64,000 nucleotides of DNA, from assembly GCA_016214035.1 (NCBI GenBank), contig JACRPF010000022.1:62001-126000 (forward strand), in the 5' to 3' direction. The notes below the pieces were generated by a model. The model ran no database searches. It was not told the origin of the DNA and saw only the letters and a list, made by a program, of their open reading frames with translations. A program made the position numbers and the translations under genes. How positions within the stretch are numbered: position 1 is the stretch's first letter; every line of letters begins with the position of its first letter. Origin of the DNA: Spirochaetota bacterium (GTDB taxonomy: Bacteria; Spirochaetota; Brachyspiria; Brachyspirales; JACRPF01). Below, in pieces: positions 915 through 50,810 of the stretch.

Positions 915-2477
915 TCACATAATGAATGCCGGCAGATCACGTACCACTATTTTTCTCACTGCTTCCATTCCAAGTTCTTCAAAATCAATGACCACTGAGC
1001 TTTCTATATGTTCTTGCGCAACCAGCGCAGCAGCGCCGCCGATGGTGCCAAGATAAAATCCGCCATATTTTCTGCATGTTTCTGCAACAGAAGGACTTCG
1101 ATTCCCTTTTGCAATTGAAATCAATGATGCTCCGTTTTTCATGAATTCATCCAGATACACATCCATTCGCTGCGCCGTTGTGGGGCCAAAACTCCCGGTC
1201 ACTGCACCTGGAGGTGTTTTGGCCGGACCGGCATAATATATCGGGTATTTTTTGAAATACTCCGGTATTCCTTTGCCGCTCAAGAGCATTTCATATATTT
1301 TTGCATGCGCAATATCGCGAGCAACAATAAGTGTTCCGGAAAGCCGTATCATATCGCCTTTATTATAGCGTGACAGCATGCCGCATGTCTGTTCAATACC
1401 GCTCTCGGTCGATATTTCCGGCGCATTGTTTTTGAGATGCGGTATAAGCGATTTCGAAAAACGTTCAGGATTTTTATCGAGCTCCTCAAGAAAAACGCCA
1501 TCGCATGTTATCTTTGCCTTTATTGCGCGGTCCGCATTGCAGCTAACACCAATCCCTACCGGACATGATGCTGCATGACGCGGAAGACGTATCACACGTG
1601 CTTCTACCGCAAATGCCGTGCCGCCGAATTGTGCTCCGAGTCCTGACGATCGTGCCATCGCAAGGATTTTGTCTTCCCAGGCGCAATCGCGATACGCATG
1701 CCCTTCGGCGCTCCCCGTCTGCGGCAATGAATCAAGATAACACGCGCTCCCGAGTTTCACGGTTTTCAGTGTCTGTTCCGGTGTCAATCCGCCGATGACC
1801 ACGCAGATGCGGTATGGCGGACATGCGGCAACACCGATTGCCTTTATTTTTTCGGCAAGAAAAACCGCAAGTGAGGATTCATTTAAAAGTGCTTTGGTTT
1901 CTTGAAACAGTGCCGTTTTGTTTGATGAACCCCCGCCTTTGGCTATAAAAAGAAAACGGTAGTTATCGCCCTCACATGAAGCAATATCAATATATGCCGG
2001 AATATTGCAATTCGTATTTTTTTCTGTGAACATATCCAATGGCGCCATCTGTGAATAACGCAGATTTTCTTTGGTGTATGTCTCACGTACTCCGTCAGTT
2101 ATTGCACATGTGTCATCAGTACCCGTGAATACCGATTCTCCTTTGTATGCCAGTATATTTGCAGTGCCGGTATCCTGGCATAACGGGTAGATGCCTTTTG
2201 ATGCTATAATAGCATTCTTCAAAAGAGACGCCGCAACAAAACGGTCGTTTTTAGACGATGTGCCGTCTGAAAGAATATTATGTATCTTTTCCAGGTAGGC
2301 AGTACGTAAATAAAAAGATATTTCCTTAAACGCATCTCGCGTGAGATTTCGAATCGCATCCGGTGTAACGTGCAGCATTGTTCTGCCGTTATTCTGCGAT
2401 GTTGATATGCCTTCTTTTGATATGCATCGATAGTTTGTTTCGCGGTCCGGATCAATTGAAAAGAAATGATTTTGCAT
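915..2477 (-). CDS. Fumarate hydratase, class I (iron-sulfur)
   Basis: This 520-residue protein is a single-chain class I fumarase, interconverting fumarate and L-malate in the cytoplasm. The N-terminal part carries CQDTG at Cys100, KGGGSSNK and VAACPPYRI, with GVSCNADR further on; these contain the three cysteines expected to bind the catalytic [4Fe-4S] cluster. The C-terminal part (from about residue 370) is the beta-type domain with PPGAVTGSFGPTTAQRM. The enzyme family is oxygen sensitive, which fits other hints of an anaerobe. A TTTACA-16-TATACT promoter lies just upstream, and AAGAGA precedes the ATG. Related hydro-lyases such as tartrate dehydratase share the fold, so substrate is inferred from the fused, fumarase-like length. 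Confidence 0.93.
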   Translation of the reverse strand: MQNHFFSIDPDRETNYRCISKEGISTSQNNGRTMLHVTPDAIRNLTRDAFKEISFYLRTAYLEKIHNILSDGTSSKNDRFVAASLLKNAIIASKGIYPLCQDTGTANILAYKGESVFTGTDDTCAITDGVRETYTKENLRYSQMAPLDMFTEKNTNCNIPAYIDIASCEGDNYRFLFIAKGGGSSNKTALFQETKALLNESSLAVFLAEKIKAIGVAACPPYRICVVIGGLTPEQTLKTVKLGSACYLDSLPQTGSAEGHAYRDCAWEDKILAMARSSGLGAQFGGTAFAVEARVIRLPRHAASCPVGIGVSCNADRAIKAKITCDGVFLEELDKNPERFSKSLIPHLKNNAPEISTESGIEQTCGMLSRYNKGDMIRLSGTLIVARDIAHAKIYEMLLSGKGIPEYFKKYPIYYAGPAKTPPGAVTGSFGPTTAQRMDVYLDEFMKNGASLISIAKGNRSPSVAETCRKYGGFYLGTIGGAAALVAQEHIESSVVIDFEELGMEAVRKIVVRDLPAFIM

Positions 2478-2495
2478 TTTTTATCTCTTAAATCA

Positions 2496-2523
2496 AGTAT
2501 ATATTCATATTTCAGTTTGTAAA
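2496..2523 (-). promoter_or_regulatory. Predicted sigma70-type promoter of the fumarase gene
   Basis: On the minus strand, TTTACA (2518-2523) and TATACT (2496-2501) are separated by 16 bases. Transcription would start about 15 bases before the ATG at 2477. Confidence 0.5.
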
Positions 2524-2537
2524 GAAATGCAACTCAA

Positions 2538-2566
2538 ATCAACAGAATTGAAACAATACTGTTGAT
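2538..2566. repeat. 13-bp inverted repeat with 3-base loop
   Basis: ATCAACAGAATTG and CAATACTGTTGAT pair with one mismatch around the loop AAA. A third CTGTTGAT copy follows at 2570-2577. It may be a protein-binding site within the origin-like region. Confidence 0.6.
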
Positions 2567-2900
2567 TGTCTGTTGATAGAGAGGAGAAAAAAGGCAATCT
2601 GTATTTATTGACGTGCCTTTTATAAATTCAAATATTTTAAAATGTCTAACGGATGAACTGTTTACTATGTACTATAAACAAACCATCAACAACAACAAAT
2701 ATATATTTATCCCGAATTTCAATCATATTTCAATTTGTCAACAAAAATGAACTATAACAACAACAATAAATTTCTATGTAACATAATATATTATTTAAAG
2801 ATATGGATACACTGTCATATATTGAATTTGTAAAATATGCTTTGGATGTAAATTCCAACCAAATGTATTAGAATATCAAACAGTTGATAAACTGTTGATA

Positions 2901-2909
2901 TGTGGATAA
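2901..2909 (-). promoter_or_regulatory. DnaA box (exact TTATCCACA on the minus strand)
   Basis: TGTGGATAA on the plus strand is the exact reverse complement of the classical DnaA box TTATCCACA. Two 7-of-9 matches in the same orientation sit immediately before it. Confidence 0.55.
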
Positions 2910-2945
2910 ATGCAAAAGGGTTAAAATTCAATATATTTGAGTAAG

Positions 2946-2976
2946 TATAACGAATTCAATTATTGAATTCGTTATA
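2946..2976. repeat. Perfect 15-bp inverted repeat 3' of RNase J
   Basis: TATAACGAATTCAAT (2946-2960) and its exact reverse complement (2962-2976) flank a single base. It begins 6 bases past the RNase J stop codon. It is too AT-rich for a typical intrinsic terminator and is not followed by a T-run on the minus strand, so an operator or an origin-associated site is equally likely. Confidence 0.7.
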
Positions 2977-2981
2977 TAAAT

Positions 2982-4658
2982 TTACTTTTTACCGTTAATT
3001 GATACAACAACGAGCGGTTGTCGTTCGATTTCCTTGAAAAAGAACTTTTGAAGCTTGTATTTCGTCTCATATTGAAGAATTGATGACTTTGTTTTACCGT
3101 TTTTTATAAGCTTTTCAATGGTGTCGATAACAATACTTCTGCCTTTTTCAAAAAGAGCGTTTGTTTTACCGTCTGAAAAAATAAATCCTTTACTGACGAT
3201 ATCCGCATCTATTTCAACTTTATTATCGTTACTTATCGTGGCCGACACAAAAACAACACCGCCGGATGCCAGTTTCTGACGGTCTTTTAGCACTAATTCA
3301 CTGACATCACCGACACCTTTGCCGTCCACATATACATTAATAAGCTCAAGATGATCGACAATTACGGCCTTTTCTTCATCCAATTCAAGGACATCCCCAT
3401 CAAAAAGCACTACCGAGGCGTCACGTTTTCCGGTAAGCAGTTCAATGAGTTTTGCATGTTTTATGATATGACGTACTTCGCCATGTACAGGAATGAGATA
3501 TTTCGGACGTACAAGACGATATAAAAGCTTCAATTCTTCGCTGGAGGCATGACCGGATGAATGTATTTCATATTCATCTTCATCGATGACATGAGCGCCT
3601 TTTTCATAGAGCAGATTGACAAGATTGTTTACCGGTATTTCATTACCGGGAATGACACTTGCAGAAAGAATAACAACATCACCGGACGCAAGTTTGATGT
3701 GACGATGAGCGTCAGAAGCGATGAGCGCCAATGATGAAAAAGGTTCGCCCTGGCTGCCGGTGGTAACACAGACAAGTTTTTCACGGGGATGATGCGCAAT
3801 TTCTTCAATGGGTATGATGGTACCCTGAGGGTAATTAAGATAGCCAAGTTGTTTGGCGATATCAGTACAGCGCATTAAGCTTCGTCCGGAGAATGCAACC
3901 CGACGCCCGTTGTTATGCGCAGCGGTGAGCATCTGCTGAATTCTATGAAGACTTGAGGCGAATGTAGCGATGATAATCATCCCGGTAGCGCGAGAGAACA
4001 GATGATCGAGCTCCCGGTTAACAATACTTTCACTGATGGTGAAGCCTGATTTTTCAACATTCGTACTGTCACTGAGCATGGCAAGAACGCCGCGTTCCCC
4101 ATATTCAGCGAATTTATACAAATCAATTACATGGCCGTCAACGGGTTCAAGATCAATCTTGAAATCGCCGGTGTGAATGATGGTTCCCACCGGCGTTGTT
4201 ATAGCAAGGCCTATGCTGTCCACGATGCTGTGATTGGTATGAATGAATTCAATTGAAAAATGCGATAGCGTGACAACATCACGAGCGCTCACTTCCTTAC
4301 AGACGATCTTATCGAGGGGAAGATGCGCGTCCATGAATTTTTCACGAAGGAAAGCAAGTGTCAGTTTGGTTCCATATATCGGCGCATCGAGCGATTCGAT
4401 AACATGAGTGACCGCGCCAATATGGTCTTCGTGTCCGTGCGTAAGAATAAGGGCAAGAACCTTTTTATCGGCGAGATAGCTGATATCCGGAATGACATAA
4501 TCGACACCCGGCATATCGCTTTTCGGAAACATGAGACCTGCATCGATGACGATGACTTCCTGCTCGTATTCTATAACGAGCATGTTCTTACCGATTTCTT
4601 TTAATCCGCCAAGCGGGATAATACGTAATTTACTTTTTTGATCCAAGCGGTTGCTCAA
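2982..4658 (-). CDS. rnj: Ribonuclease J
   Basis: A 558-residue metallo-beta-lactamase/beta-CASP ribonuclease that matures and degrades RNA in the cytoplasm. The N-terminal LRIIPLGGLKEIGKNM and the zinc-binding HGHEDHIGA (about residues 74-82) are diagnostic, followed by the beta-CASP part (GRS, SGHAS and PVHGE motifs) and a C-terminal domain. Length fits RNase J1/J2. The only in-frame start that keeps the conserved N terminus is TTG at 4656-4658 or another TTG four codons later; no clear ribosome site precedes either. A TTGACA-16-TATACT promoter overlaps the end of the anti-sigma gene, leaving a leader of about 40 bases that can form a 6-bp hairpin (TCGGTA/TACCGA). Confidence 0.93.
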   Translation of the reverse strand: MSNRLDQKSKLRIIPLGGLKEIGKNMLVIEYEQEVIVIDAGLMFPKSDMPGVDYVIPDISYLADKKVLALILTHGHEDHIGAVTHVIESLDAPIYGTKLTLAFLREKFMDAHLPLDKIVCKEVSARDVVTLSHFSIEFIHTNHSIVDSIGLAITTPVGTIIHTGDFKIDLEPVDGHVIDLYKFAEYGERGVLAMLSDSTNVEKSGFTISESIVNRELDHLFSRATGMIIIATFASSLHRIQQMLTAAHNNGRRVAFSGRSLMRCTDIAKQLGYLNYPQGTIIPIEEIAHHPREKLVCVTTGSQGEPFSSLALIASDAHRHIKLASGDVVILSASVIPGNEIPVNNLVNLLYEKGAHVIDEDEYEIHSSGHASSEELKLLYRLVRPKYLIPVHGEVRHIIKHAKLIELLTGKRDASVVLFDGDVLELDEEKAVIVDHLELINVYVDGKGVGDVSELVLKDRQKLASGGVVFVSATISNDNKVEIDADIVSKGFIFSDGKTNALFEKGRSIVIDTIEKLIKNGKTKSSILQYETKYKLQKFFFKEIERQPLVVVSINGKK

Positions 4659-6242: not shown

Positions 6243-7157
6243 ATGCGTATTATTATCTCTTTCGTGGTATCACTGTGTATCAGTGCAGCGGTATTTGCGC
6301 AGAGCATTACCAATCAGGACGATCTTAACAAGATAGCAGGCGACATCGCGGGTGCTATTAAGGCGAACTACGGGTTTGTCACCGGTTCGGGGAATTATTA
6401 CAGCCCCGGGGTGCGCCAGTTTCCCGGACTACGTATCGGCGTCGGTGCCGGTGTTGCGGGGAACGCATCGCTTTTCACCGTGTTCAATAACGGGTTGTCA
6501 ACCACCACCAATATACTCGATGCGTTCAAGCTTCTTCCCGGTGTGTACGATATGGTGTACGGCAAAGTGGGGCTTTTCGATCTGCCGCTCATCGGGCTTA
6601 TCGATGTCGGCGGGCGACTGGGTTATTTTCCGAAAACAACATTTACACTGCCCGGCGGCTACGGGTTTACGGTTGACAATTTCGCATTCGGCCTTGAAGT
6701 CCGGCGTAAAATGCTCGACGAGTTCGGCGGGCTTCTCAAACTTGATATCCGCGCATCAATCGACGTCAATAGCGGCAGTATCGCTCTCGGCTATTCCAAT
6801 ACGGTGTCGAATGTGACATTGACGGTGACCAATACTATGGCATGGACAGGATCATCCTTTGGCGTAAAGGCCGTGGGCGGCATATCGATTCCATTTCTCG
6901 GTACTGTTTATGCTGGTATCGGTCCGAATATCAATGTCGGCAGTGTTAAAGATACGATTAACGTGAACGGCAGCGGCGAATTATTCGGTACGGTAATGAA
7001 TCTTCCGGGACTGAACGCAAGCGGTACGGCATCGTATGATGCTTTTGATATTCGCGCTCTTGCCGGTGTGCATCTGTTTGTACTTGATGTGGCTGTTGAA
7101 TACGGGCTTTTGAGCAAAGGAATATGTCTCAGCGGCGGCGTATCGTTCTTCTTTTAA
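6243..7157 (+). CDS. Secreted glycine-rich protein, probable outer-membrane barrel
   Basis: A 304-residue protein with a clear signal peptide (cleavage expected after the Ala-Phe-Ala-Gln near residue 20). The mature part is rich in Gly, Val and aromatic residues in alternating beta-strand patterns, and it ends in Phe-Phe-Phe, a common C-terminal feature of outer-membrane beta-barrels. CAGGAGGAAC sits at good spacing before the ATG. It is a single-gene unit with its own strong terminator. No family could be named; outer-membrane location is inferred from composition only. Confidence 0.75.
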   Translation: MRIIISFVVSLCISAAVFAQSITNQDDLNKIAGDIAGAIKANYGFVTGSGNYYSPGVRQFPGLRIGVGAGVAGNASLFTVFNNGLSTTTNILDAFKLLPGVYDMVYGKVGLFDLPLIGLIDVGGRLGYFPKTTFTLPGGYGFTVDNFAFGLEVRRKMLDEFGGLLKLDIRASIDVNSGSIALGYSNTVSNVTLTVTNTMAWTGSSFGVKAVGGISIPFLGTVYAGIGPNINVGSVKDTINVNGSGELFGTVMNLPGLNASGTASYDAFDIRALAGVHLFVLDVAVEYGLLSKGICLSGGVSFFF

Positions 7158-7206: not shown

Positions 7207-7247
7207 ATCTTATGTGCATGTAACAGGTTGTACAATATGCCCTGTTC

Positions 7248-7275
7248 TTGCAAAACCCGCAGAGAATACTATACT
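7248..7275 (+). promoter_or_regulatory. Predicted leaderless promoter of the TonB-like gene
   Basis: TTGCAA (7248-7253) and TATACT (7270-7275) are 16 bases apart; only 6 bases separate the -10 box from the ATG at 7282, so transcription should begin at or next to the start codon. Confidence 0.5.
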
Positions 7276-7281
7276 ATAATC

Positions 7282-8172
7282 ATGAAAGGTAATCAGAACA
7301 GCACACTACGCCTTTCCGTGGCACTATCGCTGATACTGCATGCAATGTTATTTCTGCCGATGGCGGCACCGGATATATACCATCGTTTCACCACGAATCC
7401 AAATACCCGACAAGAAAAAAAGAACGAGACAATGCTTTTGGAGAATGATGAACAGCAGAATATACCCGATTCGAATACGATATTCCAGGGACCAAAAAAT
7501 ACACGGTCACAGGGGAAAATAACACCGAAGACCGGATATAACACCTATGGAAAAGATGCCAACAGGTTTGTGATGAGTCAGTATGAACGGGATATACGGG
7601 GTTCACGGGAGATCATCGTAACGACAATACGTGAGCCGGAAACGGCATCGGAAGAGCTTCCTAAAACGACCGAAGGTACTGCGGCAGAGGCTAAGAAAAA
7701 AAGAGATGCCATTACCATTGTCGAGCAGGGTGCAGTTGAACAGAAAGCACGACGGATGCCGTTTTCATATGACGACCAGGAGGACATGAAGATAGGGTTT
7801 TCACTTGAAGACGGCCGATTAACACTGGGTACACGCTGGGCGGCGCATGCGGAATATTTTATCGCGCTGGTAGGCAGTATACGGGAATCCTGGGACGCAT
7901 CGATACCGATTGCCCATTACTACGGCATCATCAAAGACGATGCCGTCGAGGTTATGCTCAGTATCGACGCCAGCGGGAAAATAGAATATGTAAAACTGCT
8001 GCAGCCGTCGGCACAGTTTCAGGAAAGCATGACGCACTCCTGTGTAAATGCGGTGCGCTATGCGCGACCCATACCCCCGCCGCCGGAAGACCTGATACGG
8101 GAAAACGGAATCGGGGGTAAACTGATGGTGCCCTTTCGTTTTATCTATCAGAACATCAAGAACAAGTATTAG
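7282..8172 (+). CDS. TonB-family C-terminal domain protein
   Basis: The 296-residue protein has one N-terminal membrane segment (about residues 9-28), a long charged and polar linker, and a C-terminal domain (about residues 190-290) with the TonB pattern: a variable VEVMLSIDASGKIEYVKLLQ strand, YARPIPPPPEDL and a final strand. TonB proteins span the periplasm and pass inner-membrane energy to outer-membrane receptors; no ExbB/ExbD or receptor is nearby, so it may instead belong to the TonB-C proteins with structural roles. The ATG at 7282 is chosen because the membrane segment follows it at once and the -10 box lies 6 bases upstream; there is no ribosome site. Confidence 0.75.
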   Translation: MKGNQNSTLRLSVALSLILHAMLFLPMAAPDIYHRFTTNPNTRQEKKNETMLLENDEQQNIPDSNTIFQGPKNTRSQGKITPKTGYNTYGKDANRFVMSQYERDIRGSREIIVTTIREPETASEELPKTTEGTAAEAKKKRDAITIVEQGAVEQKARRMPFSYDDQEDMKIGFSLEDGRLTLGTRWAAHAEYFIALVGSIRESWDASIPIAHYYGIIKDDAVEVMLSIDASGKIEYVKLLQPSAQFQESMTHSCVNAVRYARPIPPPPEDLIRENGIGGKLMVPFRFIYQNIKNKY

Positions 8173-8179
8173 CTGATAT

Positions 8180-8195
8180 TGTTTCACGTGAAACA
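8180..8195. other. parS: parS chromosome-partitioning site (ParB binding site)
   Basis: The 16-base palindrome TGTTTCACGTGAAACA matches the widely conserved bacterial parS consensus at every position. It lies in the short gap between two genes. parS sites cluster near replication origins and load ParB and, through it, SMC. A second copy lies at 10589. Confidence 0.85.
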
Positions 8196-8230
8196 ATCCG
8201 ACAAGAGCGGACGGTTATAAGGGCGGGAAT

Positions 8231-9085
8231 ATGGATTATACGGTTCAACATCTGATACGGACACAGCGGCCGTTCTTTTCTATCGGCGAGGGAATACACC
8301 CTGACGATTTTCACATGGATTTCCATACACATGATTTTTTCGAGATAGGCTATGTCATCGGCGGAAACGGGCACTATGAAGTGGCTGAGCAAGATCATGT
8401 CCGTCAGGTAGGTGTACAAAAGGATATGTGCCTGCTCTGGGACGGCGCAACGGCACATCGCGCGGTGGATGAACCGGGAACACCGCTGCATCAGATAATC
8501 ATGACATTCGATGACTCTTTCATTGAGGGATATTCACTGCTGGACCGTATTCGTGCGGTCACGCGGCAACGGGTGCCGCTCTGTATCAATGATATGCTGG
8601 TTACGGCGGGCATACGGCAGATACTGCGGAGGCTTATCGCCGAGCACCGGAACAACGCCGCCGGCAGCGGTGATGTATGCAGAGCGCTTCTCGTTGAACT
8701 TCTGACAATGATATACCGGCGCACGAGCGATACTCCGGGCGATGCAGTGCGCACACAGGATGGGCGCATCGACGCAGCCTGCAGCTATATTGCCGCACAT
8801 TACCATGAGCAGATGCAGGTGTCGTCGATTGCCGCATCGCTTGATGTATCGGTTCGTTATTTTTCAGAATTATTCCGTGTCGGTACCGGCAAAACATTTG
8901 TGGAATATGTGAATACATACCGGATATCCATGGCACAGCAGATGCTTACCGGCGGCAATGAGCGAATCATTACGATAGCATTTGAATCCGGCTTTGACAG
9001 CATATCGCATTTCAATGCGATGTTCAAAAAGATCACCGGGATGACGCCGGGAGAATATCGTGAACGCAACGGCGCCGGACGATAG
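8231..9085 (+). CDS. AraC-family transcriptional regulator with cupin sensor domain
   Basis: A 284-residue regulator. The N-terminal half is a cupin-type domain (HTHDFFEIGYVIGGNGHYEV at about residues 33-53) expected to bind a small ligand, often a sugar. The C-terminal 100 residues contain two helix-turn-helix motifs, ending with the family signature IAFESGFDSISHFNAMFKK and TGMTPGEYR. No sugar operon adjoins it, so the target is unknown. The start at 8231 is preceded by GGGCGGGA. Confidence 0.92.
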   Translation: MDYTVQHLIRTQRPFFSIGEGIHPDDFHMDFHTHDFFEIGYVIGGNGHYEVAEQDHVRQVGVQKDMCLLWDGATAHRAVDEPGTPLHQIIMTFDDSFIEGYSLLDRIRAVTRQRVPLCINDMLVTAGIRQILRRLIAEHRNNAAGSGDVCRALLVELLTMIYRRTSDTPGDAVRTQDGRIDAACSYIAAHYHEQMQVSSIAASLDVSVRYFSELFRVGTGKTFVEYVNTYRISMAQQMLTGGNERIITIAFESGFDSISHFNAMFKKITGMTPGEYRERNGAGR

Positions 9086-9100
9086 CCGGCAGAACTACTA

Positions 9101-9128
9101 TTGACGAAAAATAATGGCGTTATATAGT
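9101..9128 (+). promoter_or_regulatory. Predicted promoter of the CsgG-like gene
   Basis: TTGACG (9101-9106) and TATAGT (9123-9128) are 16 bases apart. Six bases after the -10 box lies an ATG opening a 10-codon reading frame (9135-9167), before the real gene start at 9193. Confidence 0.6.
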
Positions 9129-9192
9129 AAATGCATGGTTGGGCGGAATGGATATAACAATCTATAAACCGCCGGCTGCAAAGGAGAACCTC

Positions 9193-10533
9193 ATGAAAAA
9201 GATATTCGTAGTATGCATTGCTGCCGCCGCACTGCTGAGCGCACAGGTTAAACCGGCCGGCAAGGCTGAAGTGCAATCGCGCATACCGCAGATCGGCATC
9301 ATGGACATAATGTCGTCATCATTCGAACGCTCGAAAACGCGCATGCTTACCGATGTGCTTCGCACCGAATTGTTCAAGGTGCATCTGTTCAAAATCATCG
9401 AGCGCGGTGTACTTGAAAAGATTCTGCAGGAACACAGTATCAAGATGACAGGGCTTATTTCCGATGTCGACCTCCTGAAGATCGGGAAAATACTCGCGGT
9501 GGAAAAACTGTTTGTCTGCACGCTTGAAAAGTTCAGTTCAACCATCGCGGTGAATATCCGCATCATCGATGTGAACACGTCTCTTGTCGATTACACCGAG
9601 AATGTGTTCGTGAAAGATGAGGATATGATATTCGACGCGCTCAAGGACATCGTAAAAAAAATAGAACTGTATTACGCCGTGAAGGGAGATGAAGTACAGA
9701 CCGAGAACAAGTCGTCATTGATTAACAGGAAGTGGGTCATACTCGGCGCAACCGAAGAAGAGATAAAATATTTCATTCTGCAGAAGACCGATCCGGAAAG
9801 TTTTCTTGATCTCAGGCAATACGATATCACGTTCAAGCCCGCCGATTATGTTGATGCGTTGAAACGCGGCTGGGACAGCGCGGTGATAAAGAATTTTCTG
9901 CAGGCAGGCATTCCGTATAAGCAGGTACAGAAAGCGCTGTCACTCGGCATCGTATCGCTTGATAATTTCAAGAAATCATTCCGCTATCAGGGATATTCGT
10001 TTGAGGATTATCTTGACGCATATGCAAACAACATCATGACCGTGAACGATTACAAATCATTCAAGGAAGGCTACCGCAAGGACAGGTTCATCGTCGGTCT
10101 CGGCGGTGTTGCGGACAATCTCCCCATTGCAATAGCGAACTACAAATTTCTGCTTGGCATGGTCGGCTGGGAGCATTTCTGGAGCGAGTATCAGCGCGGT
10201 ATCGTCAAGTTCAGTACTGATGTGAGCCTGAACATGATGAACATCATCGTGCCCATTCCGAGCGTCTGCTTTAATGTGTACGCCGGCATGTATCCGTTCT
10301 ATGCGAAACTGTCGCTTGGCGGCCATGCGGAGATAATCCTCGGCGGACACTATGCCGCGTTGGGAAAGATAGGCGTTGAAGTGGCGGAACAGTTCGCGTT
10401 CGATGCGTTCTTTATCTTTTACGGTACACAGCCGGGAATATCGTATACGGACCTCAAAACGAAAAAAGGTGAAGCGGGATATATCCCCATAAACTACCCG
10501 TATTATGCCGCGATGTTCTCGTATAAGTTTTAA
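9193..10533 (+). CDS. Secreted CsgG-like domain protein
   Basis: The start at 9193 is supported by AAAGGAGAA at ideal spacing and by the signal peptide MKKIFVVCIAAAALLSAQ. Of 446 residues, about 32-165 resemble the CsgG/penicillin-binding-protein-activator fold: IGIMDIMSSSF, a two-helix stretch, IIERGVLEKILQEH, and a strand with RIIDVNTSLVDYTENV. The C-terminal half is aromatic and glycine rich and may form membrane strands. CsgG proteins form or accompany outer-membrane secretion channels, but no curli genes are present and the protein lacks an obvious lipobox, so the exact role is unknown. It precedes the second parS site. Confidence 0.75.
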   Translation: MKKIFVVCIAAAALLSAQVKPAGKAEVQSRIPQIGIMDIMSSSFERSKTRMLTDVLRTELFKVHLFKIIERGVLEKILQEHSIKMTGLISDVDLLKIGKILAVEKLFVCTLEKFSSTIAVNIRIIDVNTSLVDYTENVFVKDEDMIFDALKDIVKKIELYYAVKGDEVQTENKSSLINRKWVILGATEEEIKYFILQKTDPESFLDLRQYDITFKPADYVDALKRGWDSAVIKNFLQAGIPYKQVQKALSLGIVSLDNFKKSFRYQGYSFEDYLDAYANNIMTVNDYKSFKEGYRKDRFIVGLGGVADNLPIAIANYKFLLGMVGWEHFWSEYQRGIVKFSTDVSLNMMNIIVPIPSVCFNVYAGMYPFYAKLSLGGHAEIILGGHYAALGKIGVEVAEQFAFDAFFIFYGTQPGISYTDLKTKKGEAGYIPINYPYYAAMFSYKF

Positions 10534-10588
10534 AACACACAATCATCGTTCTCATGATGTCGTGAACGTTGCGTGCCCGTACTCTTTT

Positions 10589-10604
10589 TGTTTCACGTGA
10601 AACC
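10589..10604. other. parS: Second parS-type site
   Basis: TGTTTCACGTGAAACC matches 15 of 16 positions of the parS consensus, in an intergenic gap 2.4 kb from the perfect site at 8180. Confidence 0.75.
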
Positions 10605-10691
10605 GCCGAATACAGGAAGCCGCTTCCGATTTGCGGTAGACCCGTGAGCGGCGGCACAGTATATTGTCTTCATCACGCATGAGGAGCACAT

Positions 10692-11753
10692 ATGCTGACA
10701 CCGTATCTTGACGACCTTTCACGGCGCATTGACAGCGTGAAAGAACATGAACTGCAGGGACAGTGGAAACAGTTTATCGGCGGCGGGATAGACGACAGTA
10801 TTTTCGCCCCGAAACGTTCGTATACAGCAGCGCCCAAAATAGTGTGGCCGAAAATAATCTACAATGAAGCGTTGAAGGACCCCGACGGCATGCTGCTTCG
10901 GGAATTTGCGGGTGCGTCCGGTGTTCTTGCAAGCGGAACGAAAACGGGAACGTTCATGTGTGTGCGTTCCAATTACGGTCCCGGCATTCTCGCGTCGGTG
11001 TTCGGCTGTCCGATTACCGTACTTGAGGATCATTATGACAGTTCGCCGCAGGCGCGTCATTTTGAATCGTTCGATGACATCAAACGTGTGCTTGATGCCG
11101 GTGTGCCGGACCTTTCACAGGGATTCGGTCCGCAGGTGTTCGCGCTTGGTGAACGCTATCGCGAGATTCAGCAAAAGTATCCGCTCATCGCGGAACATGT
11201 GCATGTATATCATCCCGATCTGCAGGGACCTATCGACGTGCTCGAACTCCTGTGGGGCAGCAATGTGTTCTATGATATGTACGACAAACCCGATTTCATA
11301 AAGGATATGCTTTCACTCATTACGGAAACGTACATCGTGTTTCTGAAAAAATGGTTTGAACTGTTCCCGCCGCATGACGGATTTTCATTTCACTGGGGTC
11401 TCATGATGAAAGGACAGGTGATGCTCCGGAATGACAGCGCGATGAATTTTTCTCCGGAGCTTTACGAGGAATTCATACGCCCGTATGACCAGCGGATCTT
11501 TGACGCATTCGGCGGCGGTGTGATACACTTCTGCGGCAAGGGATCACACTACATTGAACCGATGTCCCGTATGGACAAACTCTATGCGATCAATATGAGC
11601 CAGCCGGAATACAATGACATGCCGACAATTTATGCGAACACGATAGACAAGGGTATTGGTATCATCGGCTTCCGATATGCTGAAGCGAAAAAAGAAATGG
11701 ATGCGGGAAGGAATTTCCGCGGGCTGCTGCACACGGAAGCACCGGCGGCATAA
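10692..11753 (+). CDS. Uroporphyrinogen decarboxylase (UroD)-family protein
   Basis: A 353-residue protein of the UroD/MtaA/CmuA superfamily, a TIM-barrel group that includes true haem-pathway UroD and corrinoid-dependent methyltransferases. Visible family features include the late HFCGKGSHYIEPM segment and the IDVLELLWGSNVFYDMYDKPDFI region. It differs from canonical HemE at the N terminus and no haem genes adjoin it, so a methyl-transfer or unknown decarboxylation role is more likely. No corrinoid protein is nearby. The ATG follows GAGGAGCACAT, a strong ribosome site. Confidence 0.8.
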   Translation: MLTPYLDDLSRRIDSVKEHELQGQWKQFIGGGIDDSIFAPKRSYTAAPKIVWPKIIYNEALKDPDGMLLREFAGASGVLASGTKTGTFMCVRSNYGPGILASVFGCPITVLEDHYDSSPQARHFESFDDIKRVLDAGVPDLSQGFGPQVFALGERYREIQQKYPLIAEHVHVYHPDLQGPIDVLELLWGSNVFYDMYDKPDFIKDMLSLITETYIVFLKKWFELFPPHDGFSFHWGLMMKGQVMLRNDSAMNFSPELYEEFIRPYDQRIFDAFGGGVIHFCGKGSHYIEPMSRMDKLYAINMSQPEYNDMPTIYANTIDKGIGIIGFRYAEAKKEMDAGRNFRGLLHTEAPAA

Positions 11754-43192: not shown

Positions 43193-44404
43193 TCAATGAT
43201 ACCGTGCGTAGAGATCAGGATAGTTTTTTACAATATATGAAAAATATGCACGTGCATTTTTTTCATCTTCATGCCACCAGGGCGTCGCTGTTCCGTTCTG
43301 CGCAAGCGATAGGAATGCATTGCGTTCAGCGTCTGACATGAACGATGGAAACCGGAATTCATAATCGCTTCCAGCCAACGGGAAAAAATGATGCAGATGG
43401 AATCGTGCGTTGTAACGTTTTGTGACATCCCGGATAAATAGAATGTTTTCACTGCGTTCATCGGGTGTTTCATCGGGATATGCCACGATAATGTCGAATA
43501 AAGCCCGAAAACCGCATTCATTGGCTGTCGCCGCGGCGCGTATGACGTCATCAGCCGTGTGTCCGCGGGCAATTGCCGAGAGACGTTTATTACTTGCGCT
43601 CTGACAGCCGATAACCAGTCTGCGATTGGTTGCGTATCTTTTGATCATTGACAATGATTCATGGGTGACGCTTTCGGGTCTAAGTTCCGAAGGGAAAACG
43701 CCGAATTCGACAAAACGGAACCTGCTGCGCGCATGTGAAAGTACGCGGGCAAGCGCATCAGGGTCATTTTCATGGATACCGTAATCGAGCGCGGACGGTG
43801 CGATGAAGCCCACGCGATGCGGAACAATCTCGCGCAGTTTTTCAAGATACCGTTCGACCGATGCAAAGCTGCGGTATCGGGGATGTCTGCCGGTTGCGCA
43901 ATAGCGGCAATGCCACCGGCAGCCGCGGATTATTTCAAGCGGCGGAAAAAAGCGGATGTGCCGGGTAAGCGGAATGGCGTCGTCAAACGGGTCATTATCG
44001 CTGCCGTCATAACGGTCGCGATATGTGTTTTGTTCAGTGATATCGCGCGCGAATTCGGCGAACGAGCGTTCAGCCGGGCCGGTGAAGACGATATCGAAAC
44101 CGAGTGATCGAGTATGATCGGGCCACGCACTAGTGTGTATCCCGCCGGCGGCCGTTATCACCCGCCCGCGAACGGCGGCAATATCCCCGGCGACATGCGC
44201 GAGATGCGGCGTCATGAACGAGAACAGCATGATATCATCGCGGCGCGCATCGGCGAGATGATCGTCGATTATCATGGCAACCGGTCCGTCCACGAAACGG
44301 ATATCGAACGCATCGTCAAGTCCGTTTATTTCCAGGATGTTTAAAAGCAGCGGCCAGGTGAAACGGTTGTATGGCGCTACGCGCAGCAGGAGACGTCGTT
44401 TCAT
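43193..44404 (-). CDS. Radical SAM protein, cobalamin-binding-type N terminus
   Basis: A 403-residue protein. Residues 1-130 resemble a B12-binding Rossmann region without a clear DxHxxG motif. The radical SAM cluster is CRWHCRYC (Cys-x3-Cys-x2-Cys) near residue 165. The organisation recalls the B12/radical-SAM proteins of the MJ_1487 type, whose reactions are unknown. Its ATG overlaps the flippase stop by one base (TAATG), tying it to surface-glycan synthesis. Confidence 0.85.
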   Translation of the reverse strand: MKRRLLLRVAPYNRFTWPLLLNILEINGLDDAFDIRFVDGPVAMIIDDHLADARRDDIMLFSFMTPHLAHVAGDIAAVRGRVITAAGGIHTSAWPDHTRSLGFDIVFTGPAERSFAEFARDITEQNTYRDRYDGSDNDPFDDAIPLTRHIRFFPPLEIIRGCRWHCRYCATGRHPRYRSFASVERYLEKLREIVPHRVGFIAPSALDYGIHENDPDALARVLSHARSRFRFVEFGVFPSELRPESVTHESLSMIKRYATNRRLVIGCQSASNKRLSAIARGHTADDVIRAAATANECGFRALFDIIVAYPDETPDERSENILFIRDVTKRYNARFHLHHFFPLAGSDYEFRFPSFMSDAERNAFLSLAQNGTATPWWHEDEKNARAYFSYIVKNYPDLYARYH

Positions 44405-45678
44405 TATGCGTGCGCTGTATGTTTTTGCCGAAGCAGCAGCACCGCAGCGGCAGCACTATATGCGGCAAGCGCTGCATGGAAAATAAGCATGATGATGACA
44501 ATCTCTGCTAGCGAGCTGTGACGGGCGCGGAGAACGAAATAAAGCACAACGATAAATGGTGCGTACGAATACACAATCCAATATCGTTTATGGGCGATGA
44601 AAAATATATACATGAGATAGGTTATGCTCAGGAAAAGCACCGAAAGCGCGTACCATCCGACCAATGGAATAATAGATGCGTATTTTGCGGTGAATTGAAG
44701 AACGATCAGCGGCTGTGCGAACACGACGATGAATGTTAGACCAGCAGAGACAAGCGCGAGCGTGATCAGCACAACGGTAAACAGCACAGTACGGCCGCCG
44801 TCGCGCGGAATATCTTTCAGAAGCCGCGCATAAAACACCGGCATGATGGCTCCCGGAACGAAATACAGCATTTTACCGAGTACGGTGATCGTCGCATATG
44901 CCCCTGCATCATCGGGAGACAGAAAGCGTTTGACAAGAAGCATGTCGATATTCATGGAGAGGCCATAGAGTGAAGTGGCAATCACAAGTGGCAATGCGGC
45001 CCAGATAACATCTTTCCAGAACAGCTTGAAATGAGCAACGGATAGCACGCTGAATATATGGGGACGGACCCGCGTGAAAACAAAAATAACACCGAGTGTC
45101 ATAAATATTAGGTATGTCAGTGTGTTCGACAGCAAGGCAAAAAAAAGATTGAAGCCCAGGAGCACAAAAAGACCGGTGAACAGAAGCCGAAGCGGGATAT
45201 TGCTGTAGGTTATCAGATTATACAGCGGCATCCGGTCGAAGCCGATGAGCAGATAACTGACAACATAGGTGACGATCATAAAAATGACGGTTAGTTCGAC
45301 GAACACCATGCTGAACTGCGCACTGATTTTCAGGTTGCTGGCGATGAAACCGGACAGCAGCACGACAACTGCAACGACGAGGCCTGCCAATCCGGTGAAA
45401 TGTATCAGAAAAGAAGCCGCGGTACGGCGGCGCTCATGCTCTGTTTTGCTATGATGCATTTTGTCGGTGATGAAATAGAAAAAAGGAGTGAACGGCATGG
45501 TGATCATTGCGATGATGCTCACGAGTGCGTTATACTCTCCGAATCCAGCCGGAGAAAGATTGCGGCTCGTATAAACGGTGATGACATAGCTGGCGATACC
45601 GGTGATGAATGAAAGCGATATGGCTATTATAGTATCACGGGAAAAACGGTTCGTTATATTTAAAAAAGACATCTTCAT
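44404..45678 (-). CDS. Wzx-type polysaccharide flippase
   Basis: A 424-residue membrane protein with about 12 helices and the MATE/PST pattern (ASYVITVYTSRNLSPAGFGEY near the N terminus). It would translocate lipid-linked glycan units across the inner membrane. It is divergent from the CDP-sugar genes and its partners (Wzy, Wzz) are not in the window. A TTGCAG-16-TACAAT promoter lies only 12 bases before the ATG, giving a very short leader. Confidence 0.88.
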   Translation of the reverse strand: MKMSFLNITNRFSRDTIIAISLSFITGIASYVITVYTSRNLSPAGFGEYNALVSIIAMITMPFTPFFYFITDKMHHSKTEHERRRTAASFLIHFTGLAGLVVAVVVLLSGFIASNLKISAQFSMVFVELTVIFMIVTYVVSYLLIGFDRMPLYNLITYSNIPLRLLFTGLFVLLGFNLFFALLSNTLTYLIFMTLGVIFVFTRVRPHIFSVLSVAHFKLFWKDVIWAALPLVIATSLYGLSMNIDMLLVKRFLSPDDAGAYATITVLGKMLYFVPGAIMPVFYARLLKDIPRDGGRTVLFTVVLITLALVSAGLTFIVVFAQPLIVLQFTAKYASIIPLVGWYALSVLFLSITYLMYIFFIAHKRYWIVYSYAPFIVVLYFVLRARHSSLAEIVIIMLIFHAALAAYSAAAAVLLLRQKHTAHA

Positions 45679-45690
45679 TACAATATATTT

Positions 45691-45718
45691 ATTGTACTAC
45701 GCGGATAAAAAACTGCAA
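45691..45718 (-). promoter_or_regulatory. Predicted promoter of the flippase operon
   Basis: TTGCAG (45713-45718) and TACAAT (45691-45696) on the minus strand, 16 bases apart. The -10 box is half of a 7-bp palindrome TACAATA/TATTGTA (45680-45696). Confidence 0.45.
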
Positions 45719-45751
45719 TGCCGGCGTGGATGTACGTTAATTCGTGGTGCA

Positions 45752-45780
45752 TTTACAAATTGGCGAGAATACATTATAAT
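45752..45780 (+). promoter_or_regulatory. Predicted leaderless promoter of the CDP-sugar operon
   Basis: TTTACA (45752-45757) and TATAAT (45775-45780), 17 bases apart; the rfbF ATG at 45787 follows after 6 bases. Confidence 0.7.
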
Positions 45781-45786
45781 CTTAGG

Positions 45787-46557
45787 ATGAAAGTAGTATT
45801 ACTTGCAGGCGGCATGGGGACGCGCATCAGCGAAGAAACCAGCATTCGCCCAAAACCCATGGTGGAAGTCGGCGGAAAACCGATCCTGTGGCACATCATG
45901 AAGATATATTCTTCGTATGGATACAATGAATTCGTTGTCTGTCTCGGCTATAAAGGTTATTTTATCAAGGAGTATTTCAGCAATTATTTTCTTCATCAGG
46001 CCGACGTAACCGTAGATCTGGCAAAGAATATTACAGAATATCACACATCAAAAGCCGAACCGTGGAGAGTAACACTGATCGACACCGGGGCTGAGACTAT
46101 GACCGGCGGAAGGATAAAACGCATACAGCAGTATATCGGGGATGAGGCGTTCATGATGACCTACGGCGACGGAGTGGCCGATATCAATATACGTGAGCTG
46201 GTGGCGTCACATCAAAAAAGCGGATGTACGGCGACCATTACCGCCGTTCAGCCATCAGGGCGGTTTGGCGTATTGAATATCGGGCAGGACAATAAAGTTA
46301 ATTCATTTCAGGAAAAACCGCGCGGCGATGGTTCATGGATCAATGGCGGTTTTTTCGTGCTTGAACCGTCAATATTTAAATTGCTTCATGATGACGCGAT
46401 AGCATGGGAACGTGAACCGCTTGAAAGCATAGCGAAACAAGGTCAGCTCAATGCGTACCATCACCACGGTTTCTGGAAACCTATGGACACGCTTCGGGAT
46501 AAGAATGAGCTTGATGAACTATGGAGAACGAACAGCGCTCCGTGGAAGATATGGTAA
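45787..46557 (+). CDS. rfbF: Glucose-1-phosphate cytidylyltransferase
   Basis: RfbF (DdhA) makes CDP-glucose from glucose-1-phosphate and CTP. The 256-residue protein opens with MKVVLLAGGMGTRI and has RPKPMVEVGGKPILWHIMK, then TYGDGVAD, NGGFFVLEP and the FWKPMDTLRDKNELDELW tail. The N-terminal strand is part of the active site, so the ATG at 45787 is firm; the promoter -10 box is only 6 bases before it. First gene of the 3,6-dideoxyhexose cassette. Confidence 0.96.
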   Translation: MKVVLLAGGMGTRISEETSIRPKPMVEVGGKPILWHIMKIYSSYGYNEFVVCLGYKGYFIKEYFSNYFLHQADVTVDLAKNITEYHTSKAEPWRVTLIDTGAETMTGGRIKRIQQYIGDEAFMMTYGDGVADINIRELVASHQKSGCTATITAVQPSGRFGVLNIGQDNKVNSFQEKPRGDGSWINGGFFVLEPSIFKLLHDDAIAWEREPLESIAKQGQLNAYHHHGFWKPMDTLRDKNELDELWRTNSAPWKIW

Positions 46558-46563
46558 CGTTGC

Positions 46564-47679
46564 ATGATGAAATTTTTTCAGAGCGCATTTAACAACAAGA
46601 CCGTACTAATCACCGGACATACCGGTTTCAAAGGCTCCTGGCTTTCGCTCTGGCTTAAACGTATGGGCGCGAATGTCATTGGTTATGCGTTGGCACCGGC
46701 TACCGAGCCAGCGCTGTTTTCCGCTCTCGGGATCGCCGATAAGGTTACCAGTGTCATCGGAGATGTGTGCGACGAGGATGCGCTGCAGGAGACGGTAAAA
46801 AAATACCGGCCTGATGTGGTGTTCCATGCCGCCGCGCAGGCTTTGGTTCGTACGTCATATCAGGAACCGAAACACACCTATGAAGTGAATGTCATCGGCA
46901 CAATGAATGTATATGAAGCGGTGCGTCGTTCAAAGCAGCCCTGTACGATTGTTACCGTAACCAGCGATAAATGCTATGAGAATAAAGAATGGGTGCACGG
47001 GTACCGTGAGAACGATCCGTTCGGCGGATATGATCCGTACAGTTCGAGTAAAGGGTGTGCGGAAATTCTTACCGCATCGTATCGGCGCTCGTATTTCGAT
47101 CCGTCGGCATACGGTTCGGCGCACCGTGTTGCACTGGCATCCGTCCGTGCGGGAAATGTCATCGGCGGCGGTGACTGGGCGCTGGACCGGCTTATTCCTG
47201 ATTGCGTCCGTTCGCTACAGGCAGGTGCCGCCATCGAGCTCCGTAATCCGAGCGCGACTCGCCCGTGGCAGCATGTTCTTGAACCATTATCCGGTTATCT
47301 TCACGTGGCGGCACTGTTGATGCAGGACCCGGAGAAGTATTGCGAGGGTTGGAATTTTGGCCCGAATGACGATTCCGTCGTTTCGGTGGAAAACGTCGTC
47401 AAAAAAATGATCGCGGCATGGGGTTCCGGTTCGTATCGTGTCACCGGAGCGTCACATATGCATGAAGCGAAACTTTTGAAACTCGATATCAGCAAAGCGC
47501 GCTTTCTGCTCGGATGGGAACCGGTGTACTCCCTTGACGAGGCGATTTCAGCTTCAGCAGAATGGTATCGCGCATATTATGGAAATAACGCCGACATGGC
47601 GTCATTCACTGCAACACAGATCGAATCGTATGTGAACCGTGCCCGCGAGCTGGGCATTGCGTGGGCACAGGAGCGCTGA
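46564..47679 (+). CDS. rfbG: CDP-glucose 4,6-dehydratase
   Basis: RfbG (DdhB) converts CDP-glucose into CDP-4-keto-6-deoxyglucose. The 371-residue SDR enzyme has the NAD site ITGHTGFKGSWLSLWL, TSDKCYENKEW, the catalytic YSSSKG (Tyr-x3-Lys) and RPWQHVLEPLSGYL, all characteristic of this enzyme. It starts 6 bases after rfbF; a second ATG directly follows the first. Confidence 0.96.
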   Translation: MMKFFQSAFNNKTVLITGHTGFKGSWLSLWLKRMGANVIGYALAPATEPALFSALGIADKVTSVIGDVCDEDALQETVKKYRPDVVFHAAAQALVRTSYQEPKHTYEVNVIGTMNVYEAVRRSKQPCTIVTVTSDKCYENKEWVHGYRENDPFGGYDPYSSSKGCAEILTASYRRSYFDPSAYGSAHRVALASVRAGNVIGGGDWALDRLIPDCVRSLQAGAAIELRNPSATRPWQHVLEPLSGYLHVAALLMQDPEKYCEGWNFGPNDDSVVSVENVVKKMIAAWGSGSYRVTGASHMHEAKLLKLDISKARFLLGWEPVYSLDEAISASAEWYRAYYGNNADMASFTATQIESYVNRARELGIAWAQER

Positions 47680-47680
47680 A

Positions 47681-49027
47681 ATGGCTATTATGGAAAAAAT
47701 ATTACGATCGTTAGTACATGCGTCTGCGGGATGGTATTCACTGGCGGTACGGAAACGGCATTCAGCATATTTGCCCCCATCCGGCAAAGTTATCGGATGG
47801 AACGAATTACGCGGCATGATCGACGCTTCACTTGACGGCTGGCTAACCACCGGCAGGTTTAATGAAGAATTTGAAAAACGCCTTGCCTCATACATCGGTG
47901 TCCGTTATACGCTTTCGGTGAACTCCGGTTCATCGGCGAATCTGCTGGCGGTATCAGCATTGACATCGCATAAGCTGAAGGACCGCCGTCTTTGTGAAGG
48001 CGATGAGGTGATCACCGTTGCCGCCGGTTTCCCTACGACAGTTGCGCCGATAATACAGAACCGAATGATTCCGGTATTTGTCGATGTCAGCGTCGGTACG
48101 TATAACGCGGTCGTCGAGCATATTGAAGAGGCCGTGTCGAAAAAGACCAAGGCGATATTCCTTGCGCACACACTCGGTAATCCGTTCGATATCGACGGCA
48201 TCCGTTCGATCGCTAAAAAGCATAAACTGTGGCTCATCGAGGATAATTGCGATGCGCTGGGTTCCGAGTATAAGGGACGGAAAACCGGCACCTTCGGGCA
48301 CATCGCTACATGCAGCTTTTATCCTGCGCATCATATCACCATGGGCGAAGGCGGCGCGGTGCTTACCGATGATCCGGAACTCTATCGTATCATCATGTCG
48401 ATGCGCGACTGGGGCAGGGACTGCTGGTGCCCGCCCGGAAAAGATAACACCTGCAGCAGAAGATTTGAGCAGAAACTCGGAAATCTTCCGACGGGATATG
48501 ATCACAAATATACCTATTCGCATCTGGGTTACAATCTGAAAATAACCGACTGGCAGGCGGCGATTGGCTGTGCGCAGCTGGACCGGCTGCCAGAGTTCAT
48601 CCGGAAACGCCGCGAGCATTTTACGATGCTGTCTGACGGGTTGAAAAAACATGATGATGTATTCGTATTACCGACCGCGACGGATGGAAGTTCACCGTCG
48701 TGGTTCGGATTTCTCCTCACGCTAAAAGATACTGCCGGGTTTTCGAAGTTCGATCTGGTGCAGCATCTTGAAGCAAAGGGTGTCGGCACACGGCAGTTGT
48801 TCGCCGGCAATATGCTCAGACAACCGGCGTTTGTCTACAACGAGATACCGATGCGTATCCGATCATCAAAATTGATAGCGTCCCATCGTCTTTCCGATAA
48901 ACATTACACCTTGTTGCCGGGAACGGAGACGATAATGAACAACACGTTCTGGATTGGTTTGTGGCCGGGGCTGAATGCGCAAACGATCCGTTCAGCGATC
49001 GATGCACTCGCGGGTTTCATTACCTGA
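47681..49027 (+). CDS. rfbH: CDP-4-keto-6-deoxyglucose 3-dehydrase (E1)
   Basis: RfbH (DdhC/E1) removes the C3 hydroxyl using PMP and a [2Fe-2S] cluster. The 448-residue protein has SFYPAHHITMGEGG, where histidine replaces the lysine of aminotransferases, and cysteines near residues 190, 248, 250 and 258 that fit the E1 spacing C-x57-C-x-C-x7-C exactly. The ATG at 47681 has CAGGAG 7 bases upstream. It needs an electron-donating reductase (DdhD/E3 in known systems), which is not present in the window. Confidence 0.96.
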   Translation: MAIMEKILRSLVHASAGWYSLAVRKRHSAYLPPSGKVIGWNELRGMIDASLDGWLTTGRFNEEFEKRLASYIGVRYTLSVNSGSSANLLAVSALTSHKLKDRRLCEGDEVITVAAGFPTTVAPIIQNRMIPVFVDVSVGTYNAVVEHIEEAVSKKTKAIFLAHTLGNPFDIDGIRSIAKKHKLWLIEDNCDALGSEYKGRKTGTFGHIATCSFYPAHHITMGEGGAVLTDDPELYRIIMSMRDWGRDCWCPPGKDNTCSRRFEQKLGNLPTGYDHKYTYSHLGYNLKITDWQAAIGCAQLDRLPEFIRKRREHFTMLSDGLKKHDDVFVLPTATDGSSPSWFGFLLTLKDTAGFSKFDLVQHLEAKGVGTRQLFAGNMLRQPAFVYNEIPMRIRSSKLIASHRLSDKHYTLLPGTETIMNNTFWIGLWPGLNAQTIRSAIDALAGFIT

Positions 49028-49043
49028 GCAACCGATAAAACTC

Positions 49044-50810
49044 ATGAAGCTTTCAGACTACATCGTCCGATTCCTTGAAGAGAACGGCATCGACATCGTA
49101 TTCGGTTATATCGGCGGCGCCATCACGCATCTTGTCCAGTCGGTACATGATAATGCTGGTGTACGCTTTGTCCAGGTGTATCATGAGCAGACTGCTGCAT
49201 TTGCCGCGGAGGGCTATGCGCGGCGTTCGGGTAAATTCGGCGTCGCTATGGCAACAAGCGGACCCGGCGCCACAAATCTCATCACGGGTATCGGCGACGC
49301 TTTTTTTGACTCCATTCCCGTACTGTATATTACCGGTCAGGTAAATACGTACGAATATAAGTATGATAAAAAAATACGTCAGCAGGGTTTTCAGGAAACC
49401 GACATTGTGTCAATCGTCAGACCGATTACCAAATATGCGGCGTTAATTTCAAACCCGACATGTATACGTACCGAGCTGGAAAAAGCGCTTTTTCATGCAC
49501 GGTCCGGGCGTCCAGGGCCGGTTGTGCTGGATATTCCGATGGATGTACAGCGTGCGGAGATTGATCCTGAAACATTGCCGCGATTTATCGTACCGGTAAT
49601 ACCCGATACAGATGGTGTAGGCGCAGCACTTGAACAGATTGTTCTCGCTGTGCAGCGAGCACAAAGACCCTTGCTGCTTGCCGGCGGCGGAGTAATATCC
49701 TCTGGCGCGAAGGATGAGCTGCTGCGGTTTGCGCAAACGAACGGGATACCCGTGGTGACATCGCTTATGGGCAAAGGAGTATTTCCCGAAGAGGACAGAC
49801 TATTCGTCGGTATGATCGGCAGTTACGGTAACCGCTGTGCGAATATTGCGCTTGCAAATACGGATCTGCTCATCGTAGTCGGTTCGCGTCTGGATACGCG
49901 TCAGACTGGTACCCTGCTCACATCGTTCGTGCGGCAGGGCGACATCGTGCATGTGGATATCGATCCTGCCGAGCTCAGCGAACACCGGATCGACCGGAAA
50001 TATAAAGTATGCATGGATGTGAAACATTTCCTTCTTACGATCACCGGGGCGATGAAAACAAAACCGGAATGCGGTGCATGGCTTTCACACATAGCGTCCC
50101 TTAAGAAAGCATATTCGCAGCAGAGCGAGGTATCCCGCTTTGTAACGAACAGCATGCCGTATCGTATCATCGATATGCTGAACCGGTACTCGCAGGATGA
50201 TCAGCAGTATTTTGTAGACATCGGACAGAATCAGATGTGGTCGGCGCAGGGGCTTCGCATACGAGACAAGCAGCGGTTTTATACAAGCGGCGGCATGGCA
50301 CCTATGGGGTATGCAATACCGGCGGCCATTGGTGCGAGTTTTGCTGGAAATTTCAAAGAGCATATTTTTGCTGTTGTCGGCGATGGCGGTCTGCACATAT
50401 CCTCTCAGGCGCTGTTGTTGCTGTCGCAATACCAACTACCCATCAAAGTCATTGTAATGAATAATCAGAGTCTCGGCATGATCACGCAGTTCCAGGATCT
50501 CTATTTCAATAAAAACCGGGTCGGGACGACTAAAGACAGCGGCTATCTTATTCCCGATCTTGCGGCGCTGGCCACAGCGTACTTTCTGCCGCACTTCATC
50601 ATTGATAAGAACAACATCAACGATGCGTCATATCTTGAAAAAATACTCACTGACCGGACAGCGGCCGTTATCGAATGCCGCATCGGCGAGGATACGACGG
50701 TGAGTCCCAAAATATCGGTCAATACGCCGATCGAGGATGTCAGTCCGAAACTCGACCGTGACGAGATGAAAAAGGCGATGGTCATAGATCTTTACGACGG
50801 TGAAAAATAG
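49044..50810 (+). CDS. yerE: ThDP-dependent acetyl-transferring enzyme, YerE-like
   Basis: A 588-residue protein of the acetolactate-synthase superfamily. The catalytic Glu48 lies in VYHEQTAAFAAEGYAR, SGPGATNLITGI follows, and the ThDP site runs from GDGG near residue 446 to NN near 472. Position directly after rfbFGH argues against branched-chain amino acid synthesis and for YerE, which in yersiniose synthesis adds the two-carbon unit from pyruvate to C4 of the CDP-3,6-dideoxy-4-keto sugar. This assignment rests on context and family, not on a proven reaction. Confidence 0.8.
   Translation: MKLSDYIVRFLEENGIDIVFGYIGGAITHLVQSVHDNAGVRFVQVYHEQTAAFAAEGYARRSGKFGVAMATSGPGATNLITGIGDAFFDSIPVLYITGQVNTYEYKYDKKIRQQGFQETDIVSIVRPITKYAALISNPTCIRTELEKALFHARSGRPGPVVLDIPMDVQRAEIDPETLPRFIVPVIPDTDGVGAALEQIVLAVQRAQRPLLLAGGGVISSGAKDELLRFAQTNGIPVVTSLMGKGVFPEEDRLFVGMIGSYGNRCANIALANTDLLIVVGSRLDTRQTGTLLTSFVRQGDIVHVDIDPAELSEHRIDRKYKVCMDVKHFLLTITGAMKTKPECGAWLSHIASLKKAYSQQSEVSRFVTNSMPYRIIDMLNRYSQDDQQYFVDIGQNQMWSAQGLRIRDKQRFYTSGGMAPMGYAIPAAIGASFAGNFKEHIFAVVGDGGLHISSQALLLLSQYQLPIKVIVMNNQSLGMITQFQDLYFNKNRVGTTKDSGYLIPDLAALATAYFLPHFIIDKNNINDASYLEKILTDRTAAVIECRIGEDTTVSPKISVNTPIEDVSPKLDRDEMKKAMVIDLYDGEK

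Follow-up and report, generated by a model that had tools for sequence, protein, structure and literature searches.

Probable parS sites of a chromosomal ParABS system next to a predicted replication origin in a genome of the Brachyspirales

Two 16-bp palindromes spaced 2.4 kb apart in a stretch of 64,000 nucleotides (the window; contig C19:62001-126000) of a Brachyspirales genome raise the question whether they act as centromere sites in chromosome segregation and where the replication origin belonging to them is situated. On sequence evidence we consider it highly probable (about 0.93) that they are genuine parS sites, located next to the replication origin and belonging to a ParABS system of the chromosome. 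The most likely origin is predicted to be the AT-rich gap 2478-2981; the perfect DnaA box in this gap is 5.3 kb left of the first site. Proximity of parS to the origin is nothing unusual in bacteria; a review (PMC7022226) notes that the origin domain houses par operons as well as most parS sites. The evidence drawn from the sequence comprises the sites and their uniqueness, their positional conservation in one family relative, the genes encoding ParA, ParB, Smc and ScpA, the contact residues of ParB, a switch in strand composition and a cluster of boxes. Binding, spreading, segregation, Smc loading and origin activity are taken over from established knowledge of ParABS systems.

As reference for membership we used the 16-bp palindrome TGTTNCACGTGAAACA, the parS consensus as printed in PMC7022226. 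Site 1 matches it exactly and site 2 with one mismatch at the last base (Table 1), in agreement with the first-pass annotation, which had called the sequence at 8180 a perfect parS and that at 10589 a copy deviating by one base. No further match was found in the window at up to three mismatches. Both sites had been described as intergenic, and both indeed fall between plausible genes: site 1 in a 58-bp gap (8173-8230) between the plus-strand open reading frames (ORFs) 7228-8172 and 8231-9085, and site 2 in a 158-bp gap (10534-10691) between the plus-strand ORFs 9139-10533 and 10692-11753. In the mechanical ORF list, the gap of site 1 is overlapped by small antisense ORFs alone. Throughout the genome (5,214,743 bases in 22 contigs) these two sites are the only matches at up to one mismatch; the only such pair is thus confined to 2.4 kb and not scattered. 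A reversed, non-complemented control pattern gave no match in the whole genome. In a first-order Markov model 0.0012 sites per window and 0.079 per genome are expected at up to one mismatch, which bears out the earlier statement that two copies are improbable by chance. The whole-genome scan also returned two matches with two mismatches, on contigs C14 and C17; these were set aside as parS, since their half-sites are altered and 1.7 such matches are expected by chance.

Table 1. Features around the parS sites and the putative origin, in window coordinates.
Feature	Position	Strand	Remarks
Fumarate-hydratase-like gene (named by eye)	915-2477	-	Left of putative origin; plus-strand third-position GC skew -0.038
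Putative oriC	2478-2981		504 bp between genes, GC content 24%; no other 500 bp of contig C19 (295 kb) is as AT-rich
Three ATCAACA/TGTTGAT units	2538-2577		At 2538, 2560 and 2571; possible DnaA-type boxes
ATCAACA unit	2685-2691		In putative-origin gap
Run of related units GTTGATAA...TGTTGAT...TGTGGATAA	2880-2909	+	TGTTGAT at 2893; perfect box at end
Perfect DnaA box TTATCCACA	2901-2909	-	One of three in contig C19 (C19:64901)
RNase J-like gene (named by eye)	2982-4658	-	Right of putative origin; plus-strand third-position GC skew +0.290
Conserved protein	7228-8172	+	Beside parS also in Brachyspira and in the family relative
parS site 1	8180-8195		TGTTTCACGTGAAACA; perfect 16-bp palindrome, 0 mismatches; 5' of araC-like gene
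AraC-family regulator	8231-9085	+	Between the two parS sites; PF12833, PF02311
CsgG-domain protein	9139-10533	+	Between the two parS sites; missing from that interval in the family relative
parS site 2	10589-10604		TGTTTCACGTGAAACC; 1 mismatch (last base); 5' of uroD-like gene
URO-D-family protein	10692-11753	+	3' of parS site 2; in the family relative between parS and parB

The organism had been expected to possess a ParABS system, and a chromosomal rsmG-parA-parB cluster is present at C1:16.3-18.6 kb, that is, on a contig other than the parS-bearing C19. ParA (PF13614) is encoded directly upstream of parB. In a profile search of the genome the chromosomal ParB gave the strongest ParB_N match (111.4 bits), the other four matches reaching at most 46.3 bits. 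The protein of 287 amino acids contains ParB_N, HTH_ParB and ParB_C domains (PF02195, PF17762 and PF23552, all above cut-off), carries a GERRFRA motif and has Spo0J, ParB and Noc among its relatives in the PDB. Its N-terminal ALGRGI resembles LG(R/K)GL, described in a passage of PMC9712426 as the ParA-stimulating motif. Counted by hand from the conserved GKSR (G170-K171-S172; GKSR...GHAR stretch), its contact residues are R at 173 and G at 201 in Caulobacter numbering, parS-type and unlike Noc-type; work on ParB and Noc has linked this pattern to parS (PMC7383237, in part). Moreover, genes for Smc and ScpA are present in the genome.

Other ParB-like genes were also seen. A second ParA-ParB pair adjoins a recombinase-like gene at C21:271481-274786 and is probably an integrated mobile element. 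At C22:225976-229242 three adjacent ORFs match ParB_N, and by eye the C-terminal part of the last one looks like a methyltransferase; these are possibly phage or element genes.

Positional conservation was assessed in G001, the sole other family member among 60 relatives. Its conserved block reads rsmG-parA-parB, uroD, parS, araC, parS, a 766-amino-acid protein, the counterpart of 7228-8172, three further genes and an RNase J-like gene. Two perfect parS sites occupy the same two boundaries, C7:61826 (5' of araC) and C7:60937 (5' of uroD), 1-2 kb from parAB. Outside the 16-mers, the gaps of the two genomes look unalike by eye. The RNase J-like gene of the window, at the same end of the block, shares 72% identity with its counterpart, and the skew minimum of the relative's contig (68,642) falls within that counterpart, which adjoins the corresponding gap. 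Between parB and uroD, this block is broken in the window's genome, with the parAB side on C1 and the parS-origin side on C19. No Pfam match was found for the 7228-8172 protein; the description 'TonB-like' was by eye only. Farther along the window, at 43193-61205, a gene run resembles surface-polysaccharide synthesis by eye, with a flippase, sugar-nucleotide enzymes, glycosyltransferases, a hisH/hisF-like pair and radical SAM proteins.

Concerning the origin, the cumulative GC skew of C19 declines as far as 65,414 (window 3414), its minimum, and climbs thereafter. Left of this region (C19:20-64.5 kb) the mean third-codon-position skew is -0.140 for plus-strand and +0.006 for minus-strand genes; on the right (C19:65-110 kb) the means are +0.033 and -0.162, respectively. 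The two genes bordering the gap 2478-2981 are both on the minus strand, and their plus-strand skews (Table 1) place the switch in strand composition across it. Gene by gene, third-position skew is noisy to the right of the gap, where the plus-strand gene 6243-7157 stands at -0.162. With one perfect DnaA box and five TGTTGAT/ATCAACA units, the gap holds the densest such cluster of C19; by likeness to clusters in Brachyspira, the units are possible candidate DnaA boxes. The two parS sites lie about 5 and 8 kb from the putative origin. The gene dnaA itself is found at C19:132931, 7 kb past the window end, 63 kb from parS site 1 and 68 kb from the putative origin, so that the gap is not adjacent to dnaA. 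The first-pass annotation had considered the window probably origin-proximal and proposed comparing the distribution of parS with cumulative GC skew. In our skew analysis, which covered C19 and C1 up to 100 kb, the sites lie near the minimum, 5-8 kb from it and from the flip in strand composition. The claim is supported, with two refinements: parAB is encoded on a different contig and not beside the sites, and it is the gap 2478-2981, rather than dnaA, that is likely to be the origin. Skew is positive through the first 100 kb of C1 and gives the parAB contig no placement.

Comparison with other spirochaetes extends these observations. Sites with at most one mismatch occur in 48 of 61 genomes (77 sites by hand sum vs 1 for the reversed control), and all 27 genomes with at least two sites have them within 2.6 kb. 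Distances between parS, parB and dnaA were compared in 46 of the 48 parS-bearing genomes (G036 and G042 left out), using one parS site per genome and the best ParB and DnaA matches on the same contig, with circular correction in 8 genomes only. In the other spirochaete families parS lies at most 5 kb from parB in 11 of 13 same-contig cases and at most 40 kb from dnaA in 9 of 13. The corresponding counts in Brachyspiraceae are 0 of 8 and 0 of 8; here parB is 0.19-2.4 Mb and dnaA 0.67-1.6 Mb from parS, the parB distance of 2402 kb in G014 shrinking to about 0.9 Mb when measured around the circle, provided that the contig is a closed chromosome. In two genomes, on contig C1 of both G033 and G054, parS lies within the parB gene, with dnaA 1.36 and 0.87 Mb off; separation from dnaA may thus not be limited to Brachyspirales.

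Boxes of the type TTATC(A/C)ACA accompany parS at most of the Brachyspiraceae loci compared. At least three within 400 bp were found near parS in 14 of 18 loci, at 3.0-4.0 kb in 13 and at 6.1 kb in one (G006). The loci without a cluster of three had two boxes at 3.4 kb (G023), one box (G004), none (G011) or two that were not clustered, with at most one per 400 bp (G024). At dnaA no such cluster was detected: none of six stretches, two of them covering the right side only, had more than one box. For G018 and G022, each a genome in one contig, sampled stretches put the minimum of cumulative skew on the parS side, far from dnaA; the skew sign change brackets parS in G018, and the lowest sample in G022 is about 0.2-0.3 Mb from parS. 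Since the skew minima of individual 20-kb stretches were mostly found away from the boxes, it is the boxes, not local skew, that carry the association of parS with the origin. The genomes belong largely to one genus (G002-G030 represent three genera), and the cases are not independent. In two Brachyspiraceae genomes, groups of TTATCAACA boxes in either orientation lie beside parS (L077 16477-16704, five boxes; L078 13230-13452, four boxes), which suggests that this sequence is the local DnaA box. Most parS sites in the Brachyspiraceae loci L012-L033 are asymmetric, TGTTTCACATGAAACA. Where a locus has two asymmetric sites, they are convergent in 12 of 14 cases and direct in two (L024, L026).

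With its 16-bp parS, the domain order of its ParB, the GERRxRA motif, the helix-turn-helix with R173/G201, a parA-parB pair, sites near the origin and the presence of Smc, the system resembles Spo0J-parS of Bacillus subtilis and ParB-parS of Caulobacter. Unlike these, the genome has only two sites, and parAB and parS are on separate contigs. It shares with the par locus of the spirochaete Borrelia burgdorferi a parS near the origin. In that organism Smc is recruited by ParB and, unlike here, parA and parB lie head to head and ParA is controlled by ParZ, according to parts of PMC9712426; retention of ALGRGI and a parB beside parA correspond to what the same source describes for spirochaetes outside Borreliaceae. 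In Brachyspira the origin had earlier been placed at dnaA (PMC2897892, PMC2650404, both in part). Passages of later papers report a skew-based origin of Brachyspira intermedia unlinked to dnaA, with other Brachyspira origins re-set likewise (PMC3163572), and an origin of B. pilosicoli that is likewise not at dnaA (PMC3532143). The skew switch described here is also away from dnaA. Brachyspira differs in its mostly asymmetric sites TGTTTCACATGAAACA and TTATCAACA boxes from this genome with its symmetric parS and TTATCCACA box. A text search found neither parS nor parB in PMC3163572 and no parB in PMC3532143. A search of open-licence literature on the distribution of parS in Spirochaetes gave no match. 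Among the open-licence literature matches listed, no paper on parS in Brachyspira was found; of those for Brachyspira together with parS, only PMC9712426 concerns a partition site.

Several findings count against the main reading. The separation of parAB (C1) from parS (C19) departs from the adjacency in the other families noted above; site 2 has a mismatch, dnaA is 68 kb off, and the gap contains a single perfect DnaA box. The palindromes might instead be operators of a transcription factor, such as the neighbouring AraC-like regulator, and merely resemble parS: they lie 35 bp before the araC-like and 87 bp before the uroD-like start and share a CACGTG core. However, the same motif is clustered in 48 of 61 genomes, only L035, the locus of G001, matches this AraC or UroD protein among loci L010-L038, and a regulator acting across the genome should have more than two sites, so that we regard operators as very improbable. 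Slightly more remote still is the idea that a ParB-type protein other than the chromosomal one uses the sites, be it a Noc-like factor or the ParB encoded by the C21 element. The pair beside the recombinase-like gene would provide such a protein, but it is distant from the chromosomal ParB (46 bits vs 605 for the self-match), and the contact residues of the latter follow the RxxG pattern of parS-type proteins. As to coincidence, two matches did arise in 4 of 100 window shuffles, though only at the looser limit of three mismatches; given the expectation of 0.0012 at up to one mismatch and the site-by-site retention in G001, chance is refuted for practical purposes.

A further alternative accepts the sites as parS and places the origin at dnaA (C19:132.9 kb). 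An origin next to dnaA is a common arrangement, not a universal one, and a dnaA at 63 kb from site 1 would still be origin-proximal in a genome of 5.2 Mb. Against this stand the GC-skew switch and the AT-rich, box-bearing gap at C19:64.5-65.4 kb, positive skew on either side of dnaA, and the origin reported as unlinked to dnaA in Brachyspira (PMC3163572 and PMC3532143, each in part). We therefore judge an origin at dnaA unlikely.

For genuine parS sites next to an origin in the gap, the following mechanism is proposed. ParB, encoded with ParA on another contig, would load at the parS palindromes and spread over adjacent DNA as a CTP-dependent clamp, which would let ParA carry the newly copied origin region into the daughter half-cells. 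Smc-ScpAB would probably be loaded by ParB at parS.

The separation of the origin from dnaA in Brachyspira is already published and is not new. Our sequence comparison adds a specific candidate origin in the window and an apparent separation of parAB from parS, and it suggests an order-wide pattern in which parS and the origin stay together, with dnaA and parAB apart. With some reserve, we favour the view that in Brachyspirales origin and parS were kept as a unit, 3-6 kb apart, as dnaA and parAB moved away, that across the order parS is a better marker of the origin than dnaA, and that the sites of Brachyspira became asymmetric, with pairs usually facing each other. The present genome would be intermediate, with its origin 5 kb from parS, dnaA 68 kb off and parAB elsewhere. 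The locus would offer a testable origin and centromere for a little-studied lineage related to Brachyspira, and parS may serve as an independent marker for the published view, based on skew, that the origins in Brachyspira lie away from dnaA. It further suggests that parS remains linked to the origin in cases where parAB and dnaA do not.
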